NCBI RefSeq assembly: GCF_900130035.1
Contig: NZ_FQXQ01000001.1
Location: 310,001 to 374,000, forward strand
Source: Wenyingzhuangia marina
GTDB taxonomy: Bacteria; Bacteroidota; Bacteroidia; Flavobacteriales; Flavobacteriaceae
Length of the DNA: 64,000 bases
Reading direction: 5' to 3'
Positions 4,093-36,406 of the stretch are shown one piece after another (within the stretch, counting starts at the first letter, position 1; the number at the start of each line of letters is the position of its first letter). Below the pieces are notes generated by a model. That model ran no database searches, was not told the origin of the DNA, and saw only the letters and a list, made by a program, of their open reading frames with translations. The translations under genes were made by a program, and so were the position numbers.

Positions 4093-5154
4093 TTAAACAA
4101 TTCCTTTTAATAGCTCTACGTAAAAAGCAACTCCATCATAAACCTCTTGCACATAAATAAATTCATCTGCTGAATGAGAACGTAAAGAATCTCCAGGACC
4201 TATTTTTACAGACTGACAAGTCAACCTACATTGATCAGATAACGTTGGAGAACCGTATGTCTTTTTTCCTAAAGCAACTCCAGACTTTACAATATCATGA
4301 TTTGGATCTATAGAAGATGAATTCAATCTTAAAGAACGAGGAATTACGTCACATTCTGTATTTTCAGCAATAATTTCTGCAATCTCTGCATTGGTGTATT
4401 GATCTGTAACCCTACAATCTACCACAAAAGTTAATTCTGAGGGCACTACATTGTGTTGATTTCCTGCATTAATTTGAGAAACCGTCATTTTTACCTCTCC
4501 TAAAAAAGGAGATACTTTTGGAAACTTATAAGAATTAATCCACTCTAAATCTTTTAAAGCTTTAAAAATTGGATTTTGATGATTTGGAATATGCGCTGCA
4601 TGACCAGGAGTTCCGGTTACTTTTCCATCAAACACCACCAAACCTTTTTCTGCAATAGCCAAATCTAACAAAGTAGGTTCTCCCACAATAGCTACATCTA
4701 TTCTAGGCATAATGTCTTGCATATAAGCAATTCCATTTTCACCCGAAATTTCTTCTTCGGCAGTAGCTGCCAAGACAAAATTGTATTTTAAATCTTTTTG
4801 AGGATAGAAATATACAAAAGCAGACATTAAACCTACCAAACAACCTCCAGCATCGTTAGACCCTAAACCATACAATTTATCTCCTTCTATTTTTGCTTCA
4901 AAAGGATCACGAGTATAGGCTTGATTTGGCTTTACGGTATCATGATGAGAATTTAATAAAATGGTCGGCTTGCTTTCATCAAAATATTGATTGGTTGCCC
5001 AAACATTATTCAAATCACGTTTTACCTCAACACCTCTATCAGTTAACCAATTTGCTAAAATTTCTGCAGTCGGTTCTTCTTCTTTAGAAAAGGATTGGGT
5101 TTGAATTAAAGATTGAAGTAATTCTAAAGCTTGTTTTTGTAGTTTTTCTATCAT
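4093..5154 (-). CDS. argE: M20-family N-acyl-citrulline/ornithine deacylase (ArgE-like)
   Basis: This metallo-deacylase of the M20 family, ~353 residues, removes the acyl group in arginine synthesis. Zinc-site motifs are visible: LLNSHHDTVKP, the GLGSNDAGG segment with the bridging Asp, ATAEEEISG with the catalytic Glu pair, and VGEPT. Because the neighbouring transcarbamylase is the N-succinylornithine type, the natural substrate is probably N-succinylcitrulline rather than N-acetylornithine; this is inference from pathway context. The ATG at 5154 (MIEKLQKQALELL) is preferred over one 42 bases upstream, which would lie inside the inverted repeat of the spacer. The gene follows argB in the leftward arg operon. 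Confidence 0.88.
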   Translation of the reverse strand: MIEKLQKQALELLQSLIQTQSFSKEEEPTAEILANWLTDRGVEVKRDLNNVWATNQYFDESKPTILLNSHHDTVKPNQAYTRDPFEAKIEGDKLYGLGSNDAGGCLVGLMSAFVYFYPQKDLKYNFVLAATAEEEISGENGIAYMQDIMPRIDVAIVGEPTLLDLAIAEKGLVVFDGKVTGTPGHAAHIPNHQNPIFKALKDLEWINSYKFPKVSPFLGEVKMTVSQINAGNQHNVVPSELTFVVDCRVTDQYTNAEIAEIIAENTECDVIPRSLRLNSSSIDPNHDIVKSGVALGKKTYGSPTLSDQCRLTCQSVKIGPGDSLRSHSADEFIYVQEVYDGVAFYVELLKGIV

Positions 5155-5159
5155 ATCTC

Positions 5160-5213
5160 TTAGTTTGTAAAGTCCAAAAGTTTGTAAAGTTATCAAGTCA
5201 CTTTAAAAACTAA
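5160..5213. repeat. Intergenic inverted repeat of 7-nt units (argB/argE spacer)
   Basis: The spacer starts with TTAGTTTGTAAAGT and ends with ACTTTAAAAACTAA, whose reverse complement matches the first arm at 13 of 14 positions. Between them are further AAAGTTT-like units (GTTTGTAAAGT occurs twice). The arms reach from near the argE start to the base before the argB stop codon, so the whole spacer is built from the repeat. It would be transcribed within the arg operon and could fold as an imperfect hairpin. Confidence 0.7.
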
Positions 5214-5993
5214 TTACAACGTTAATGTTGTAAACAATTGTTCTTTATTTTTTATCACCGTTGGATTTCCTATAATTACCTCAGAAACTCCTTGTTGCAA
5301 AGCATTAAAGCAGTTTTCCATTTTTGGTAACATTCCATCAGCAATAATTCCATCAGCTTTTAACTGACTATATTTTTCAGAATTGATATCTGTAATCACT
5401 GAATTGTCATCATCTACAGAAGTCAAAACTCCATTTTTTTCAAAAGTATACACCAAAGAAACATCATATAAATCTGACATTCCTACAGCAATCGTACTCG
5501 CAATGGTATCAGCATTGGTATTTAACAACTGTCCTTTTCCATCGTGCGTAATGGCACAAAAAACAGGCGTCATACCTCCTTTAATAAACGTAGCAATATT
5601 GGTTGCATTAATTCCATCTACATCACCTGCAAAACCATAATCCACATCTACCACTTTACGTTTGTGAGCTTGAATAGAATTTCCATCAGCACCAGACAAA
5701 CCTAAAGCATTGCAGTTTTTACTTTGTAACGTAGCCACTATATTTTTGTTTAACAAACCAGCATATACCATGGTTACAATTTCAATCGTCGCTTCATCAG
5801 TAACTCTACGACCATTAATCATGGTTGCTTCAATTCCTAAATCGGCTGCCAATTGTGTAGCACGTTTTCCACCTCCGTGAACCAATATTTTATTCCCTTC
5901 TAAAACTGCAAAATCGGATAAAAAACTTTCCAATGCTCCTGCATTGTTGATTACATTTCCTCCTACTTTTACAATGGTTAGTTTTTGTTTCAT
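5214..5993 (-). CDS. argB: N-acylglutamate kinase
   Basis: This amino-acid kinase-fold enzyme of 259 residues phosphorylates N-acyl-glutamate with ATP, the second step of arginine synthesis. The N-terminal KVGGNVI and LVHGGGKRAT glycine loops bind nucleotide and substrate; NGRRVTDE and LLNTNADTIA are conserved family segments. In this pathway the acyl group is probably succinyl. It has no arginine-inhibition helix at the N-terminus, so it looks like the short form. It lies between argF' and argE in the operon, and both flanking spacers hold heptameric inverted repeats. Confidence 0.93.
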   Translation of the reverse strand: MKQKLTIVKVGGNVINNAGALESFLSDFAVLEGNKILVHGGGKRATQLAADLGIEATMINGRRVTDEATIEIVTMVYAGLLNKNIVATLQSKNCNALGLSGADGNSIQAHKRKVVDVDYGFAGDVDGINATNIATFIKGGMTPVFCAITHDGKGQLLNTNADTIASTIAVGMSDLYDVSLVYTFEKNGVLTSVDDDNSVITDINSEKYSQLKADGIIADGMLPKMENCFNALQQGVSEVIIGNPTVIKNKEQLFTTLTL

Positions 5994-5998
5994 TTTAT

Positions 5999-6095
5999 AA
6001 GTACTAAGTAAAAAGTAAAAAGTAAAAAGTATGTGTTCTAAATGTAAATAATCGCATTCCTAAACTCAGTACTTTGTACTCTATACTAGATACTA
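5999..6095. repeat. Heptamer inverted-repeat arms (argF'/argB spacer)
   Basis: The left arm (5999-6034) is five in-phase 7-nt units of the form AGTANNN: AGTACTA, three AGTAAAA, AGTATGT. The right arm (6065-6095) reads on the opposite strand as AGTATCT, AGTATAG, AGTACAA, AGTACTG. The two arms point toward each other around a ~30-nt centre. The argF' stop codon (6093-6095) is inside the right arm. Confidence 0.75.
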
Positions 6096-7052
6096 TTTTA
6101 AATTCTCTAATATTTTCTTTAACACAATCTGCGCTGAATAAGTTCTGTTATTTGCTTGTTTGATAACGATAGAATTTTCAGAATCTATCACTTCATCCGC
6201 TACAATTACATTTCTACGAACAGGTAAACAGTGCATAAATTTTGCATTGTCTGTTACCGCCATTTTATCTGCTGTAATCATCCAAGAACTATCTGTATTT
6301 GCTACTTTTCCGTAGTCTTTATACGATGACCAGTTTTTAGTGTAAATAAAATCTGCTCCTTCAAAGGCTTTCTTTTGATCATATTCAATTGTCGCACCTT
6401 TAGTTCTTTCAGGACTTAATTCATATCCTTCTGGATGCGTAATAACTACTTCAAAATCATCTTCATGAGCCAAAGCCATCTCTGCAAAAGAATTTCCTAC
6501 TGCGTGTGGCAAAGCACGTGGATGTGGTGCCCAAGACAAGACTAATTTTAATTTCTTTTTTGCTGGTTTGTGTTCCTCAATGGTAATGGCATCTGCCAAA
6601 GCTTGTAAAGGATGTCCTACCGATGATTCCATGTTTAAAATAGGCACAGTGGCATATTTTACAAAAGCAGATAAGACTTCTTCTGCCTCATCTTTTTCTT
6701 TGTCTTCTAATCCTGCAAAAGCACGAATAGCAATGATATCACAATATTGAGAAATCACCTCGGCAGCTTCTTTTACATGTTCAGACTTTCCTTGATCCAT
6801 AATGGTTCCATCTTCAAATTCCAACTGCCATCCTTCTGCACCAAAATTCATTACAATAGGCTCCATTCCTAAGTTCAACGCTGCTTTTTGAGTACTTAAA
6901 CGCGTACGCAAACTATTGTTAAAAAATAACAAACCAATGATTTTGTTTTTTCCTAAAGCTTGGTCTTTTAATGGATTCTTTTTTAGCTCAATCGCTTCTT
7001 TTACCGTGTCTTTAATACTTGGTAAATCGTGAATGGATAAGTAGTGTTTCAT
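6093..7052 (-). CDS. argF': N-succinylornithine carbamoyltransferase
   Basis: This transcarbamylase of 319 residues moves the carbamoyl group from carbamoyl phosphate to N-succinylornithine. Carbamoyl-phosphate motifs SLRTR (47-51) and HPLQALAD and the C-terminal HCLPVRRN are visible. It aligns without gaps over its first ~90 residues to the Bacteroides fragilis enzyme as I remember it. At the position that distinguishes the two substrates (Pro90 in B. fragilis SOTCase, Glu92 in Xanthomonas N-acetylornithine transcarbamylase) this protein has Ser90. Mutational work on the Xanthomonas enzyme showed that Ser there gives succinylornithine activity, so the succinyl pathway is supported. The gene lies between the OMP gene terminator and argB. 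Confidence 0.92.
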   Translation of the reverse strand: MKHYLSIHDLPSIKDTVKEAIELKKNPLKDQALGKNKIIGLLFFNNSLRTRLSTQKAALNLGMEPIVMNFGAEGWQLEFEDGTIMDQGKSEHVKEAAEVISQYCDIIAIRAFAGLEDKEKDEAEEVLSAFVKYATVPILNMESSVGHPLQALADAITIEEHKPAKKKLKLVLSWAPHPRALPHAVGNSFAEMALAHEDDFEVVITHPEGYELSPERTKGATIEYDQKKAFEGADFIYTKNWSSYKDYGKVANTDSSWMITADKMAVTDNAKFMHCLPVRRNVIVADEVIDSENSIVIKQANNRTYSAQIVLKKILENLK

Positions 7053-7107
7053 ATAAATATGGATTCTTTGAATCTTGTTCTAATTTATTTCTTCTTTTTA
7101 CAAAAAA

Positions 7108-7133
7108 AGAGTTCTTGATTACTCAAGAACTCT
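7108..7133 (-). terminator. Terminator downstream of the OMP gene
   Basis: An 11-bp perfect stem (AGAGTTCTTGA with TCAAGAACTCT, loop TTAC) is followed on the minus strand by seven T. It ends transcription of the outer-membrane gene at 7196-7804 and so separates argD and argF' transcription units. Confidence 0.88.
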
Positions 7134-7195
7134 GTAAAATTACTAATAATATTGTAGTTGTAATAACTTTTAAAAAGATGGTTTATTTTAATTAA

Positions 7196-7804
7196 CTATA
7201 AAAAAAACGAAAAACCTATACTCGACACAAAACCATCTGTTATTGTTTCTGCATCATACCCTTGATTGTCTATTTTATTTTTAGTTGAACTATATCCTAA
7301 GAATAAATCAGTTGAAAAATACTTCGTTAAAAAAAATGAAAAACCACCTCCTAATTGATAAGACACTACGTTATAGACTTGTTCATTATTCTGTTCATTT
7401 AGAAAAGATAATTCATATTTTGTTTTTCCAAACCCAACGTCTCCCTCTAAGAACACACCCATATGGTTATTTGAATAAGCGTATATTCTTGTAAATGGTT
7501 TTATTTGAAAAGTTGTGTTTTTCTGATAAACCTCTGGAGAATCCTGATCACTTAACTGATTGCTATATGGAATGTTTACCCCTAAAGCTATATTATTAAG
7601 AAGAAAATAGGCGACTTTTACAGAAATATTAAAGTTTTTTGTTTCTACCTCTGTCTCTGAATTATTCATACTTACTGACGAATTCAATGAACTAAACCCC
7701 AAACTAGAACTGCTTGCTCCAATTAAAAACTTTCCTTTTTCTGTTTGTGCATTTATTTTTAATGTTGCAAATCCTATTAAAACAACTAACAAAACCTTTT
7801 TCAT
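7196..7804 (-). CDS. Outer-membrane beta-barrel protein
   Basis: The ~202-residue product has a signal peptide (MKKVLLVVLIGFATLKINAQ) and then alternating hydrophobic/polar strands with many S, G, N and aromatic residues. It ends FSFFL, as expected of an eight-stranded outer-membrane barrel. The ATG at 7804 is chosen: an upstream in-frame ATG at 7849 lies inside the argD terminator hairpin. It has no known arginine role, and terminators lie on both sides, so it looks like a self-contained gene placed between argD and argF'. The function is unknown; a general porin-like OmpA-barrel fold is the best guess. Confidence 0.8.
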   Translation of the reverse strand: MKKVLLVVLIGFATLKINAQTEKGKFLIGASSSSLGFSSLNSSVSMNNSETEVETKNFNISVKVAYFLLNNIALGVNIPYSNQLSDQDSPEVYQKNTTFQIKPFTRIYAYSNNHMGVFLEGDVGFGKTKYELSFLNEQNNEQVYNVVSYQLGGGFSFFLTKYFSTDLFLGYSSTKNKIDNQGYDAETITDGFVSSIGFSFFL

Positions 7805-7841
7805 ATATTTTTTTGGGACAAACTTAATATTAATCCACAAA

Positions 7842-7868
7842 AAAACCACCTTCTATAAAGGTGGTTTT
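7842..7868 (-). terminator. Terminator of argD
   Basis: An 11-bp stem (AAAACCACCTT with AAGGTGGTTTT, loop CTATA) is followed on the minus strand by a T-run. It lies just beyond the argD stop codon. Confidence 0.85.
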
Positions 7869-7893
7869 AATTTTTTAAAATTCTATTTATAAA

Positions 7894-9021
7894 TTATAGT
7901 AATTCTTTTAATGCTTTTATAAACACATCAATATCTGCTTTTGTAATATTTAAAGGCGGTAAAATACGCAACAAGTTTTTGTTGTTTGCTCCTCCTGTAA
8001 AAATCTTATAGTCATAGATTAATTTCTTGCGTAGCTCTCCTACTTCGTAGTTAAATTCCAACCCAAGCATCAATCCTTCTCCTTTTATTTGTTTTACTCC
8101 AGGTAAGTCTTTTACTTGCTCCTTAAAGTATGCATTTACCTCAGCAACATTTTGCATAATGTTTTCTTGCTTCATCACATCTAATACAGCTATTCCTGCA
8201 GCACATGCTAAATGAGAACCTCCAAAAGTAGTTCCTAACATTCCGTACCAAGGCTCAATATGATTTGCAATTAAAACTCCACCAATTGGAAAACCATTCC
8301 CCATTCCTTTTGCCATCGGAATGATATCTGCTTTTACTCCGTGATGTTGGTGTGCAAAGAACATTCCAGATCTTCCGTAACCAGATTGTACCTCATCGAA
8401 AATTAAGCACACGTTATTTTCTTGAGTAATTTTTCTTACTTCTTGTAAAAATTCTGTGGTTGGTTGATCTAATCCTCCAACTCCCTGAATAGGTTCTACA
8501 ATTACAGAAGAAACATCTCCTTTAGCAATCTCTGTTTTCACCAATTCAATATCATTCAATGGTAAAATAGTTACAGGATTATGTGCGTTGATTGGAGCAA
8601 TAATTTTTGGATTGTCTGTAATAGAAACGGCTCCAGAAGTACGTCCGTGGAATCCGTTTTTAAAAGCAATCACTCTAGATTTTTGATTGTAGAACGAGGC
8701 TACTTTAATAGCGTTTTCGTTTGCCTCAGCTCCTGATGAGCATAAAAACAAAGCATAGTCTTCTCCACATCCAGACAAGTCTCCTAATTTATCAGCCAAT
8801 TCTTGCTGCAAAGGATTCTGAATCGCATTAGAATAAAATCCAACTTTACTCAATTGATTTTCTAATGCTGCTTTGTAATATGGATGTGTGTGACCAATAG
8901 AAATCACTCCGTGACCTCCATATAAGTCTAAATATTTCTCTCCTTTATCGTCCCAAACATAAACTCCTTCTGCTTTTACAGGAGTTACGTTGTATAATGG
9001 GTATACGTCAAATAATTTCAT
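7894..9021 (-). CDS. argD: N-acylornithine aminotransferase (class III PLP)
   Basis: This PLP enzyme of 375 residues interconverts N-acylglutamate semialdehyde and N-acylornithine using glutamate. It shows the class III layout: GGHGVISIGHTHP near the N-terminus, CSSGAEANENAIK for phosphate binding, FHGRTSGAVS, the cofactor-Asp motif IFDEVQSGYGRSG, and the Schiff-base lysine in AKGMGNGFPIGG. By pathway context its substrate is probably the succinyl derivative. It follows argC and is closed by its own terminator at 7842-7868. Confidence 0.93.
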   Translation of the reverse strand: MKLFDVYPLYNVTPVKAEGVYVWDDKGEKYLDLYGGHGVISIGHTHPYYKAALENQLSKVGFYSNAIQNPLQQELADKLGDLSGCGEDYALFLCSSGAEANENAIKVASFYNQKSRVIAFKNGFHGRTSGAVSITDNPKIIAPINAHNPVTILPLNDIELVKTEIAKGDVSSVIVEPIQGVGGLDQPTTEFLQEVRKITQENNVCLIFDEVQSGYGRSGMFFAHQHHGVKADIIPMAKGMGNGFPIGGVLIANHIEPWYGMLGTTFGGSHLACAAGIAVLDVMKQENIMQNVAEVNAYFKEQVKDLPGVKQIKGEGLMLGLEFNYEVGELRKKLIYDYKIFTGGANNKNLLRILPPLNITKADIDVFIKALKELL

Positions 9022-9029
9022 TTTAATTT

Positions 9030-9094
9030 AGTATTAAGTACTGAGTATTGAGTACAGAGTATTCTTACTACTTTGTACTTTATACTTTGTACTA
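9030..9094. repeat. Heptamer inverted-repeat arms (argC/argD spacer)
   Basis: The left arm (9030-9064) is AGTATTA, AGTACTG, AGTATTG, AGTACAG, AGTATTC, exactly in 7-nt phase. The right arm (9065-9094) reads on the minus strand as AGTACAA, AGTATAA, AGTACAA, AGTAGTA. The arms abut and fill nearly the entire spacer between the argC stop and the argD start. This is the cleanest copy in the window. Confidence 0.82.
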
Positions 9095-10072
9095 TTAAAA
9101 AGCACTTCCTTTTAAGTGCAATCCTTCAGTTTCCTCAAAGCCAAACATTAGGTTCATGTTCTGAACTGCCTGCCCTGAAGCCCCTTTTAACAGGTTGTCA
9201 ATAGCTGAATAAATCAACAAATTGTCTCCGTGTTTAATTAAAGAAATAGCACACTTGTTTGTGTTCACCACTTGTTTCATATTCACAGGGGCATCCGTAA
9301 CGTGAACAAACGGTGCCTCTGCATAAAACCGTGTAAAAATTTCTTTAGCTTCTTCTAAAGTTCCATCAAACTTGGTATAAATAGAAGCAAAAATTCCACG
9401 ACTAAAGTTTCCTCTGTTAGGAATAAAAAACAACTCCCCTGTTTTACTTTCTTGTAAACCTTCTAACGTTTCTCCTATTTCTCCTAAATGTTGATGTGTA
9501 AAGGGTTTGTAAACAGAAAAATTATTATCTCTCCAAGGAAAATGAGACGTTGATGTTGGTGAAACACCCGCTCCAGTTGCTCCTGTAGTTGCGTTGATAT
9601 GAATGTCGTTTCCTAATTTTTTAGCTTTTGCTAAAGGCAATAAGGCAAACTGAATACAAGTAGCAAAACATCCTGGATTGGCAATGTAATTTGCTTTTTT
9701 AATTTCTTCTCTTCTAACTTCAGGCAATCCGTAAATAAATTCCTTTCCTTCAAAAACCATATCAGCATTTAAACGGAAATCATTACTTAAATCTATAATT
9801 TTTGTACTGTCTGAAAACGTATTATTTTGCAAAAATGAAGTCGAATTTCCATGTCCTAAACACAAAAACAATACATCAACATTTTTATTAATAGTATCTG
9901 TAAAATCTTGCTCGGTATCTCCTAACAAATCAGCATGTACAGCGTATAGTTTATTTCCAGCATTAGAAGTACTGTACACAAAATCTAATTCCACCTGAGA
10001 ATGATTTAATATAATTCTAATCAACTCTCCAGCAGTATACCCTGCTCCTCCTACTATTCCTGCTTTTATCAT
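9095..10072 (-). CDS. argC: N-acyl-gamma-glutamyl-phosphate reductase
   Basis: This NADP-dependent reductase of 325 residues converts N-acylglutamyl phosphate to the semialdehyde. It starts with the nucleotide-binding GIVGGAGYTAGELIRI, and the catalytic cysteine is in NYIANPGCFATCIQ. ATTGATGAGVSPT and HQHLGEIGE are conserved substrate-site segments. It sits between argG and argD in the operon and is separated from both by heptamer-repeat spacers. Confidence 0.94.
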   Translation of the reverse strand: MIKAGIVGGAGYTAGELIRIILNHSQVELDFVYSTSNAGNKLYAVHADLLGDTEQDFTDTINKNVDVLFLCLGHGNSTSFLQNNTFSDSTKIIDLSNDFRLNADMVFEGKEFIYGLPEVRREEIKKANYIANPGCFATCIQFALLPLAKAKKLGNDIHINATTGATGAGVSPTSTSHFPWRDNNFSVYKPFTHQHLGEIGETLEGLQESKTGELFFIPNRGNFSRGIFASIYTKFDGTLEEAKEIFTRFYAEAPFVHVTDAPVNMKQVVNTNKCAISLIKHGDNLLIYSAIDNLLKGASGQAVQNMNLMFGFEETEGLHLKGSAF

Positions 10073-10077
10073 TTTTA

Positions 10078-10173
10078 TTTAGTTTATAAAGTTGTAAAGT
10101 TACAGGCTGAAAAGTTGTTTATCTTTATTTAGATAACTTTTAAACTTTAAGAACTTGCAACTTGACAAACTAA
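10078..10173. repeat. Heptamer inverted-repeat arms (argG/argC spacer)
   Basis: The left arm (10078-10124) begins TTTAGTTTATAAAGTTG and the right arm (10131-10173) ends CTTGACAAACTAA. Read inward from either end, both start TTAGTTTRT and continue as AAGTTNN-type units of about 7 nt. At the centre GTTTATCT pairs with AGATAAC around TTATTT, so the whole spacer can fold into one long imperfect hairpin. Confidence 0.75.
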
Positions 10174-10176
10174 TTT

Positions 10177-11373
10177 TTATGCATCTAACAAATCTTTATT
10201 TACGTGGTAAAAGATTTTGTTTTGCATTCCGTATATTTTTATAAATCCTTTGGCATCTTGACTAGACCATGCATTATTTTCCTCTCCATAATCTGCAAAC
10301 CCTGAAGCCATTAAATCATATTTAGAATCAATTCCTGTTACAATAAAGTGATAAGGTCTTAACGTTACATACACATCTCCTGATACTGTTTTTTGAGAAT
10401 CTTCTAAAAACTTTTCTATGTTACGCATCAAAGGCTCTAAGTACTGACCATCATGGAAAAATGTTCCATAAGTAGTAGCCAAACCTTCTTTGGTAATTTG
10501 TTGTGCTTTAGACAATGTATGCTTTTCTAACAAGTGATGCGCTTTAATCGTTACCGTTGCAGCAGCAGCTTCAAATCCAACACGTCCTTTAATTCCAACA
10601 ATCGTATCTCCTACGTGAATATCTCTACCAATAGCAAAAGCAGAAGCCACTTCTTCTAATTTTAAAATATTGTTTACTGGAGAATCTTGTACACCATTAA
10701 AAGCTACAAACTGACCTTTATCAAAAGTCAAAGTTACTTGCTCTTCATCTTCTCTTTTTAATTGACTTGGATATGCTTCACTTGGTAATGCTTTTTGAGA
10801 TTTTAAGGTCTCTACTCCTCCTACAGAAGTTCCCCAAATTCCTTTATTCACAGAATACTTAGATTTTTCCCAGTTCATGTCTACTCCATGAGATTTTAAA
10901 TAATCAATTTCTGTTTGACGAGATAATTTTAAATCACGAATTGGTGTAATGATTTCAATTTCTGGTGCTATGGTTTGGAATATCATATCAAAACGAACCT
11001 GATCGTTACCAGCTCCTGTAGAACCATGTGCAATATATTTAGCCCCAATAGATTTTGCATATTTAACTACTTCTATAGATTGGAATACACGTTCTGCAGA
11101 TACAGATAACGGATAAGTATTGTTTTTTAACACATTTCCATACACCATGTATTTGATGGCTTTTTCGTAATAATGTTCTAAAATATCTTTGTTTTCATGA
11201 GAAGTCACGCCCATTTCGTAAGCTTTTTTCTCAACAACAGCTAATTCCTCTTTGGTAAAACCACCTGTGTTTACCAAAACAGAATGTACTTCTAATTTTA
11301 ATTCGTTGATTAAATATTTTACACAATACGAAGTATCTAAACCTCCACTATATGCCAATACTACTTTATCCAT
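10177..11373 (-). CDS. argG: Argininosuccinate synthase
   Basis: This ATP-dependent enzyme of 398 residues joins citrulline and aspartate. The N-type PP-loop is VLAYSGGLDTSYC at the N-terminus; HGSTGAGNDQVRFD is the conserved substrate-binding segment and DLKLSRQTEIDYL follows. It is the first enzyme gene after the GNAT gene in the leftward operon. A candidate -7 element in the 267-bp upstream spacer suggests that it may also be transcribed on its own. Confidence 0.95.
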   Translation of the reverse strand: MDKVVLAYSGGLDTSYCVKYLINELKLEVHSVLVNTGGFTKEELAVVEKKAYEMGVTSHENKDILEHYYEKAIKYMVYGNVLKNNTYPLSVSAERVFQSIEVVKYAKSIGAKYIAHGSTGAGNDQVRFDMIFQTIAPEIEIITPIRDLKLSRQTEIDYLKSHGVDMNWEKSKYSVNKGIWGTSVGGVETLKSQKALPSEAYPSQLKREDEEQVTLTFDKGQFVAFNGVQDSPVNNILKLEEVASAFAIGRDIHVGDTIVGIKGRVGFEAAAATVTIKAHHLLEKHTLSKAQQITKEGLATTYGTFFHDGQYLEPLMRNIEKFLEDSQKTVSGDVYVTLRPYHFIVTGIDSKYDLMASGFADYGEENNAWSSQDAKGFIKIYGMQNKIFYHVNKDLLDA

Positions 11374-11382
11374 GATATTATT

Positions 11383-11542
11383 TTAGTTTGTAAAGTTTTA
11401 AAGTTAAAAGTTCGTAAAGTTTTACTTCTCTTTTTAAACTTTTTTAAAACTTAATTTCCTTATTTCTATTTACTTGCTTCATTCTAAAGTTGATTTTTTT
11501 GATTAAAATTTTTACTTTTTAACCTTCAACTTTATAAACTAA
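11383..11542. repeat. Heptamer repeat arms upstream of argG
   Basis: The left arm (11383-11421) starts TTAGTTTGTAAAGTTTT and continues with AAAGTTN units. The right arm (11521-11542) read on the minus strand is TTAGTTTATAAAGTTGAAGG. The arms are the same word family as the repeats at 5160 and 10078, but here they are about 100 nt apart, with degenerate T-rich AAACTTTT-like units in between. Confidence 0.65.
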
Positions 11543-11555
11543 CAATTACAGTCCG

Positions 11556-11563
11556 CAAAAATA
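11556..11563 (-). promoter_or_regulatory. Candidate -7 element upstream of argG
   Basis: The minus strand reads TATTTTTG, matching TAnnTTTG, just outside the repeat arms in the GNAT/argG spacer. TCCG and CGGA flank it as a short inverted repeat. No -33 TTG is seen at 19-20 nt, so this is only a candidate internal promoter. Confidence 0.35.
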
Positions 11564-36319: not shown

Positions 36320-36326
36320 ATTTTTT

Positions 36327-36405
36327 TAGTATCTGGTATCATGTATCAGGTAGTTAGTATTTTTAGCACAATGTCTTGATACTAACTACTACATACTTGA
36401 TATTT
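36327..36405. repeat. Heptamer inverted-repeat arms (mraY/murD spacer)
   Basis: The left arm (36327-36362) reads AGTATCT, GGTATCA, TGTATCA, GGTAGTT, AGTATTT in 7-nt phase. The right arm (36374-36405) on the minus strand gives AGTATGT, AGTAGTT, AGTATCA units. The arms face each other around about 11 nt and fill the spacer. The word family is that of the repeats at 5999 and 9030, outside the arg locus. Confidence 0.72.
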
Positions 36406-36406
36406 T

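Follow-up and report, generated by a model that had tools for sequence, protein, structure and literature searches.

The stretch of DNA analysed here (the window) comprises 64,000 nt of Wenyingzhuangia marina, positions 310001-374000 of contig NZ_FQXQ01000001.1, from a genome of 3.24 Mb. On its minus strand lies a series of arginine biosynthesis genes, which we take to be argG, argC, argD, an argF-like carbamoyltransferase gene, argB and an argE-like gene. Among the named loci fetched for comparison, the nearest ArgC proteins, 90% identical, were those of Ochrovirga pacifica and Wenyingzhuangia heitensis. Here we describe the spacers between these genes, which are built of short units repeated in two facing arms, together with elements of 7-nt phase (heptad elements) in other operons of this genome and of other Bacteroidota.

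Two of the spacers, argF-argB and argC-argD, consist of AGTANNN units in strict phase and in facing arms. Their self-match at lag 7 is 0.55 and 0.67, respectively, and 0.18-0.35 at the remaining lags from 3 to 13. Both elements occupy the whole spacer, from stop through start, and the 5' arm of the argF-argB element overlaps the argF stop, the TAG at 6093 falling within its first unit. The argC-argD element is predicted to fold with a minimum free energy of -19.5 into helix segments of 4-6 bp with internal loops between them. A first-pass annotation, made from the sequence alone, had reported inverted heptamers in five arg spacers, running from stop to start and including stop codons. That description holds for the AGTANNN spacers (at 5999 and 9030), and it was confirmed in part for the set as a whole. 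The spacers at 5160, 10078 and 11383, described as AAGTTNN heptamers, do have inverted arms, as proposed; their 7-nt phase was an error, the core spacing being 7-9 nt and the top lags 17, 8 and 15. The last of them precedes argG and is not flanked by two arg genes. The features are listed in Table 1.

Table 1. Genes and repeat elements of the window (positions of the window; gene names assumed; z, folding z score)
Feature	Position	Strand	Remarks
argE-like gene	4093..5154	-	start placed at the ATG following the spacer
argB-argE spacer	5155..5213	-	AAGTT-type inverted element; mostly 8-9 nt spacing; weak fold, z -1.0
argB	5214..5993	-	
argF-argB spacer	5994..6092	-	AGTANNN element; 5' arm 6070-6094, 3' arm 6000-6031; z -3.1
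argF-like carbamoyltransferase gene	6093..7052	-	
argD	7894..9021	-	
argC-argD spacer	9022..9094	-	AGTANNN element; 5' arm (mRNA) 9069-9093, 7-nt loop, 3' arm 9030-9061; z -4.7
argC	9095..10072	-	relatives found via tblastn
argG-argC spacer	10073..10176	-	AAGTT-type inverted element; mostly 8-9 nt spacing; z -4.1
argG	10177..11373	-	named from sequence and context
spacer upstream of argG	11374..11560	-	AAGTT-type facing arms; arm ends at 11383 and 11542
further element, away from the arg genes	36320..36406	-	flanked by genes for a Glycos_transf_4 (MraY-like) protein and a MurD-like Mur ligase; z -4.1

The window gave no Rfam match at the gathering threshold, and no site inside either AGTA element resembled an intrinsic terminator (a stem containing G+C with a T tract after it) on the transcribed (minus) strand. 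One terminator-like site was found on the plus strand, at 9050-9080, and one on the minus strand, at 9119-9102, where argC ends and directly ahead of the element. In this genome argD and argF are separated by an open reading frame (ORF) at 7196-7849. The argD-argF spacer is only 104-108 nt long in the relatives G302, G300 and G299 (G denotes genomes and L stretches of them), with a conserved hairpin that resembles the T-tailed hairpin at 7108-7133 of the window. A similar insertion of about 2.8 kb separates argF from argB in G302 (L191) and G299 (L194).

Runs of four AGTANNN units were sought in whole genomes, together with a reversed control pattern. The W. marina genome gave 80 matches and 14 for the control, against 50 and 0 in G228 and 21 and 0 in G302. 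Within the family, 129 of 299 genomes contain such runs, and in some genomes the control matches as well (80 matches in G156). One dinucleotide shuffle of 400 kb contained no 4-unit run of period 7. Counted from the list, the 80 matches in W. marina fall into 32 within five perfect arrays (AGTAGTG, AGTAGTC) and 48 at 25 degenerate sites. All 24 degenerate sites fetched (every one but that on contig C11) lie between co-directional genes, and the perfect arrays fetched, three of the five, lie between convergent genes. Tandem AGTAGTG arrays of 6-14 units were seen between convergent genes at L036 10010-10104, L043 10237-10289 and L048 9503-9541; they differ in kind from the facing degenerate arms. 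With perfect runs excluded, the spacers of the genus set that contained runs of three AGTA units comprised 44 between co-directional genes, 2 between convergent and 1 between divergent ones. In one further stretch (L059, G000:C3:220001-240000) about 11 spacers share one repeated, partly palindromic intergenic sequence that looks integron-cassette-like, no integrase search having been made.

The 7-nt period was also surveyed independently of any one unit sequence. Genes were taken as ATG ORFs of at least 80-90 residues (70 residues with ATG, GTG or TTG starts in the survey of AGTA sites), and spacers were counted at 45-300 nt (or 15-400 nt), any containing N being excluded. The 80 named Bacteroidota loci are arg neighbourhoods, fetched for argC rather than for repeats. 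A lag-7 signal was obtained in 40 of their 476 co-directional spacers; in the same spacers lag 14 gave 18, lag 8 gave 11, lag 16 gave 8 and the rest of lags 4-15 gave 0-4. Convergent and divergent spacers gave 1 of 57 and 0 of 38 at lag 7, i.e. 1 of 95 together (Fisher p 0.008 against co-directional), which bears out the enrichment in co-directional spacers that had been proposed for testing. Among 2000 random 120-nt pieces, 11 had a signal at lag 7 and 9 at lag 6, and an Escherichia coli control, a small sample, gave 0 of 15 co-directional spacers at lag 7. The unit families vary by locus and include AGTANNN, AAGGTTT, GTTACGA, AACGATT, CAATACT and GGTCTTC among others. Inverted, phased and drifting units in operon spacers are a real feature of this genome that recurs in other Bacteroidota. 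Stretches L031-L050 and L196-L215 were picked mostly for AGTA or TTAGTTT matches, and L051-L070 and L229-L248 were picked evenly, without overlap with the AGTA-chosen stretches; neither set gives an unbiased genome rate. The evenly chosen W. marina stretches plus the window had the lag-7 signal in 6 of 120 co-directional spacers, and 0-2 at other lags. An enrichment specific to arg genes was considered and rejected: across named loci of at least 20 kb, rates per 2-kb bin ranged over 0-14%, with no clear peak at argC.

The elements are anchored to the flanking genes. In 37 spacers of the genus set with AGTA and TACT arms, orthologs included, the distance from the stop codon to the first AGTA had a median of 3 nt (10 nt or less in 36), and the stop codon overlapped the first AGTA unit in 6. 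From the last TACT to the start codon the median was 8 nt (15 nt or less in 31). They are also polar, since AGTA preceded TACT in 25 of 25 co-directional spacers with runs of at least three units, perfect runs excluded, in both arms. Over all heptad families, in spacers of up to 160 nt, the G-rich arm was the leading one in 31 of 33 named spacers, and it led in 31 against 4 (1 tie) in the set of W. marina plus relatives; for comparison, the ratio of G-first to C-first was 125:108 among the remaining named spacers and 57:52 among hairpins without heptads. Phasing extended to both arms in 18 of 32 spacers of the named loci and in 26 of 36 of the genus set, and the start-side arm was the better phased (25 against 3 with 4 ties in named spacers, 23 against 8 with 5 ties in the genus set). 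Arm complementarity was greater within an element than between elements in 56 of 68 cases. In a survey of AGTA unit variants from which perfect runs were excluded, the 5' arm used mostly CAA and the 3' arm CAG or TAA. The central variable base, read on the sense strand in both arms, was A in 153 units and T in 85 (p 4e-5, the units not being independent); with the same bias in both arms, neither can be the exact complement of the other.

W. marina spacers were compared with their orthologs in seven relatives, the flanking proteins being mostly 86-99% identical. AGTA units fill the argC-argD spacer in W. marina, G299, G300 and G303; O. pacifica has another variant of AGTA there, and in G302, G228 and W. 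heitensis the units are GCTA, accompanied by parts of a TCGAG palindrome. Between argB and argE, W. marina, G228 and O. pacifica have AAGTT units, G300 has GTTG units and G299 has TAGTT units. The argG-argC AAGTT element is near-identical in G228 and O. pacifica and is replaced in G302 by a GGCT/GCTA heptad element, while trpE-trpG holds TTAGC units in W. marina and AGTA units in G228. At orthologous sites the unit family is thus often a different one. In arg spacers of relatives, those of L193, L112 and L191 among them, a near-perfect palindrome around TCGAGCGNAGTCGAGA was seen to replace heptad elements or to lie inside them, and the ortholog of the 36320-36406 element in G228 (L196) consists of two tandem copies of a whole related element.

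Presence of an element at a site is conserved more than its sequence. In length-matched ortholog pairs, both members were occupied in 30, one only in 6 and 8, and neither in 27 (p 3e-7), and occupancy by site was 0.90 at 19 sites against 0.15 at 22 sites. Alignment exceeded 70% in 14 of the 32 both-occupied pairs, compared with 37 of the 61 heptad-free pairs. At heptad sites, spacers that had diverged nevertheless folded, with z below -2 in 19 of 23 and below -1 in all 23. Related species keep a hairpin in the same gap, often with another sequence, which suggests that shape and spacing outweigh the letters themselves.

Forty proteins flanking heptad spacers, a subset, were scanned. Best matches were HisG, HisD, HisC, HisB, HisH, HisA, HisF, TrpE, TrpG, TrpC and TrpF, together with a CysH-like protein, CysD, CysN, a sulfite/nitrite-reductase-like protein and CobA. 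IlvD, acetolactate synthase, a bifunctional aspartate kinase/homoserine dehydrogenase, ThrB, HemL and HemB were further best matches, as were RpoB, FtsY, RimO, PurU, FolD and SRP54, among others. The TrpE, TrpF, CysH-like and reductase-like matches score under curated cut-offs, and 4 of the 40 proteins had no match at the thresholds used. Heptad elements sit in his, trp, arg, cys, ilv, thr and hem operons and also after rpoB, the following gene being presumably rpoC, judging by its length. An enrichment in amino-acid pathways is our impression, formed without a background gene set.

What the sequences show directly is a 7-nt phase, a polarity, anchorage at both the stop and the start codon, a strong bias towards co-directional spacers, and sites that stay occupied when the unit family is replaced. 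To account for them we tentatively favour the explanation, which we regard as quite possible though somewhat short of probable, that the elements are intercistronic hairpins kept by selection and probably acting on translation of the downstream gene. The position from stop to start, the better phasing on the start side and the exchangeable sequence together point to the translation of that gene. Bacteroidetes seem not to use Shine-Dalgarno (SD) signals for new starts or for reinitiation (PMC6728339), so another signal would be needed. The module would begin at the upstream stop with a G-type arm, some four units in phase, continue through a variable loop and end, about 8 nt ahead of the next start codon, with a largely complementary C-type arm. 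Its target would be translation of the next cistron, in bacteria devoid of SD signals. A ribosome terminating at the upstream stop would cover and open the first units, and this opening could free a G-poor tract beside the next start; alternatively, the fold may bring stop and start together. Enzymes that follow one another in a pathway would in this way be synthesised jointly. Provided that nothing but shape, phase and position counts, the units could drift, spread by slippage or recombination, or change family. Leader-peptide attenuation has been suggested upstream of amino-acid operons in Flavobacterium psychrophilum (PMC9723704), which concerns leaders, whereas the present elements are spacers inside operons.

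Several observations weigh against selection for a translational hairpin. The sense and antisense strands of 72 heptad spacers (folding was restricted to spacers of up to 220 nt) differed by 0.33 +/- 0.64 kcal/mol, and in the AGTA subset the sense strand was the less stable in 20 of 36. Folding specific to the RNA strand is thus unsupported, and equal folding of both strands offers no proof of RNA-level selection on the fold. Stable folding is also common elsewhere, z being below -2 in 42% of 421 non-heptad spacers against 65% of the 72 heptad spacers. At orthologous sites, z lay below -2 in 16 of 27 non-heptad cases, and the excess at replaced sites is not significant (p 0.09). The ortholog pairs behind the occupancy figures are non-independent and were drawn from stretches picked for AGTA matches. 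Away from AGTA sites the signal is thin: evenly spaced G228 stretches had lag 7 in 2 of 75 co-directional spacers, one G-first and one C-first. A 7-nt step between helices is clear only in AGTA elements, the value in named heptad spacers being 0.11 against 0.09 in controls. Some elements have the start-side arm alone, or arms from different families (L048 15738), and the 7-nt phase, which hairpin function alone does not require, may be mutational. In the element at L048 15738-15812 the first arm belongs to the AGTA family and the second is (AACCAAC)n; polarity is retained and complementarity lost.

In a neutral or near-neutral account, replication slippage expands heptamers, template switching at the hairpin maintains the opposite arm, and families change by drift and re-expansion, the tracts surviving only where they are harmless, i.e. 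between the genes of operons. We consider this account rather unlikely, but well worth weighing. Perfect heptamer arrays do exist (AGTAGTG of up to 14 units, ACATTAG x6), as do mixed elements; the reversed control matches arrays in some family genomes, G156 among them; and heptamer repeats are reported to be over-represented in many bacterial genomes (PMC4692102). Against it, the arms use different unit variants consistently on the sense strand and so are not exact copies of each other, and the fetched perfect arrays are convergent whereas the degenerate sites are co-directional. Nor does it predict different families at one site, the G-first order or the better phasing of the start-side arm. 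Slippage, one of the origins offered by the first-pass annotation, is plausible for the phase and the perfect arrays; alone it leaves anchoring, polarity and occupancy with family replacement unexplained.

The same annotation had suggested a mobile element. Such elements would be small and non-autonomous, about 60-150 nt long, often with TTAG...CTAA ends, and would insert beside stop codons, which we judge rather improbable. Mobility has support in part: one element with the loop AGCRTWGCTA and similar arms occurs at five distinct genus sites, namely trpC-trpF, trpF-trpB, trpE-trpG, hisG-hisD and purU-FAH (sites were named from W. marina orthologs and elsewhere from gene order and length, trpB from length alone), and the tandem copies in G228 amount to duplication of a whole element. 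A longer 23-nt pattern of this element matches 5 of 7 genomes, none of the matches being in W. marina or G302; the W. marina hisG-hisD element itself carries the 10-nt core AGCRTWGCTA. All 13 listed rows of the element (some repeat a site) are sense-oriented with both neighbours, a uniformity (5 of 5 sites, chance 0.06) that would be unusual for DNA transposition. Most heptad sites have an element in the relatives too, and neither a target-site duplication nor an empty site was noticed in the compared ortholog pairs, in which no systematic test was made. Spread by a reverse transcriptase was rejected on finding no PF00078 (RVT_1) match in any of three genomes. The Y1 transposase family PF01797 had one match each in W. 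marina and G302 and none in G228, which nonetheless has its 50 AGTA matches, so that a REP-associated tyrosine transposase (RAYT; REP, repetitive extragenic palindromic) would not be needed there and spread by it is not supported for that genome. Candidate routes of spread are recombination, slippage and transfer from strain to strain.

An element of mRNA stability or processing, comparable to REP sequences, would shield upstream segments or mark intercistronic cleavage; it had likewise been among the first suggestions. An element acting in the mRNA is plausible, but this form of it we rate as marginally less probable than insertion of a mobile element. Placement between cistrons agrees with it. 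When folded, AGTA elements form ladders of segments that mostly measure 4-6 bp, with 7 nt as the commonest step, and such segments with regular internal loops could stop exonucleases without a long perfect duplex. The better-phased start-side arm and its end about 8 nt from the start codon indicate the downstream gene instead, and the sense strand has no folding advantage over the antisense. When four orthologous argC-argD elements were inspected by eye for covariation of the NNN positions, changes were mostly not compensatory, and the AGTA/TACT cores were retained except for one unit in G303. Very improbable, finally, is a three-frame stop ladder, in which the unit length, not being divisible by 3, would bring stop codons into every frame: many units contain stop codons and all three antisense frames are closed in 43% of heptad spacers against 31% after shuffling, yet the sense frames, at 33% against 29%, support it weakly and some units have no stops.

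Heptamers and intergenic palindromes are known from other bacteria. Cyanobacterial short tandemly repeated repetitive (STRR) sequences are heptamers. REP sequences, bacterial interspersed mosaic elements (BIME) and REPINs (REP doublets forming hairpins) are dispersed intergenic palindromes in inverted pairs, the REPs being linked to Y1 (RAYT) transposases. The present elements resemble these in being dispersed intergenic inverted pairs and differ in having a 7-nt phase, of which we know no case among REP, BIME or REPIN sequences, and in the lack of a Y1 match in G228.

The closest precedent in the sources drawn on is the P6b stem of the Nostoc tRNA-Leu(UAA) group I intron, which is built of degenerate heptamers, TDNGATT or NNTGAGT, of two families, one of which has repeatedly replaced the other (PMC4476775). 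The AGTA and other families, though not the AAGTT spacers, share with it degenerate 7-nt units in both arms of a stem and the replacement of one family by another at the same locus. By our own reading of the motif the first arm of P6b is also G-type, which the passages of PMC4476775 do not state. P6b is one cyanobacterial intron locus with two families and, as far as those passages go, bears no relation to stop or start codons. In contrast, the present elements, none of which is in a trnL group I intron, lie in the spacers of many protein operons and belong to many families. Beggiatoaceae, cyanobacteria and five Bacteroidetes have been described as carrying direct repeats of TAACTGA between genes, most of them immediately ahead of a start codon, and a translational role was proposed for them; BOGUAY has 169 sets and one indirect repeat, and some Bacteroidetes intergenic regions carry other heptamer repeats (PMC4679880). 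The present elements likewise place heptamers upstream of a start codon, at the median distance given above and with the better-phased arm on that side, but TAACTGA is one exact unit in direct repeats, whereas the units here are degenerate, of many families and mostly in facing pairs. The GGGAATC/GGGGATT repeats of Xanthomonas and Nostoc are also 7-nt units in intergenic excess, with an inverted pair in Xanthomonas, in a source that calls heptamers over-represented but little studied (PMC4692102). They are G-quadruplex-type units in tandem arrays, and the passages of that source do not describe filling from stop to start with switching of families. Intercistronic folds that control initiation of the next gene are known from UTNI, in which upstream translation opens the fold (PMC6728339), and from the mgtCB stem-loops of Salmonella (PMC8092293); those folds are gene-specific, whereas the present module is generic and interchangeable, with a coupling role that is only proposed. 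The open-access literature (subscription papers were not covered) holds no apparent description of heptamer hairpins in Bacteroidota operon spacers beyond the mention of heptamers in PMC4679880. What differs from all these precedents is a facing pair anchored at both stop and start, in many operons and in many unit families.

A more general form of our explanation, which we consider doubtful, is that a common grammar (a phase of about 7 nt, a G-arm at the stop and a C-arm at the next start) would define interchangeable translation-coupling zippers of the biosynthetic operons of SD-less Bacteroidota. Cyanobacterial and Beggiatoaceae heptamers would share this grammar and have a common reader, be it the ribosome, S1, or a cold-shock or RNA recognition motif (RRM) protein. 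As the means by which Bacteroidota start internal cistrons without SD signals, a generic hairpin from stop to start would be a direct candidate. Such a module would also bring scattered reports of heptamer repeats under one heading, and would exemplify conservation of position, phase and polarity alongside exchange of the sequence itself.

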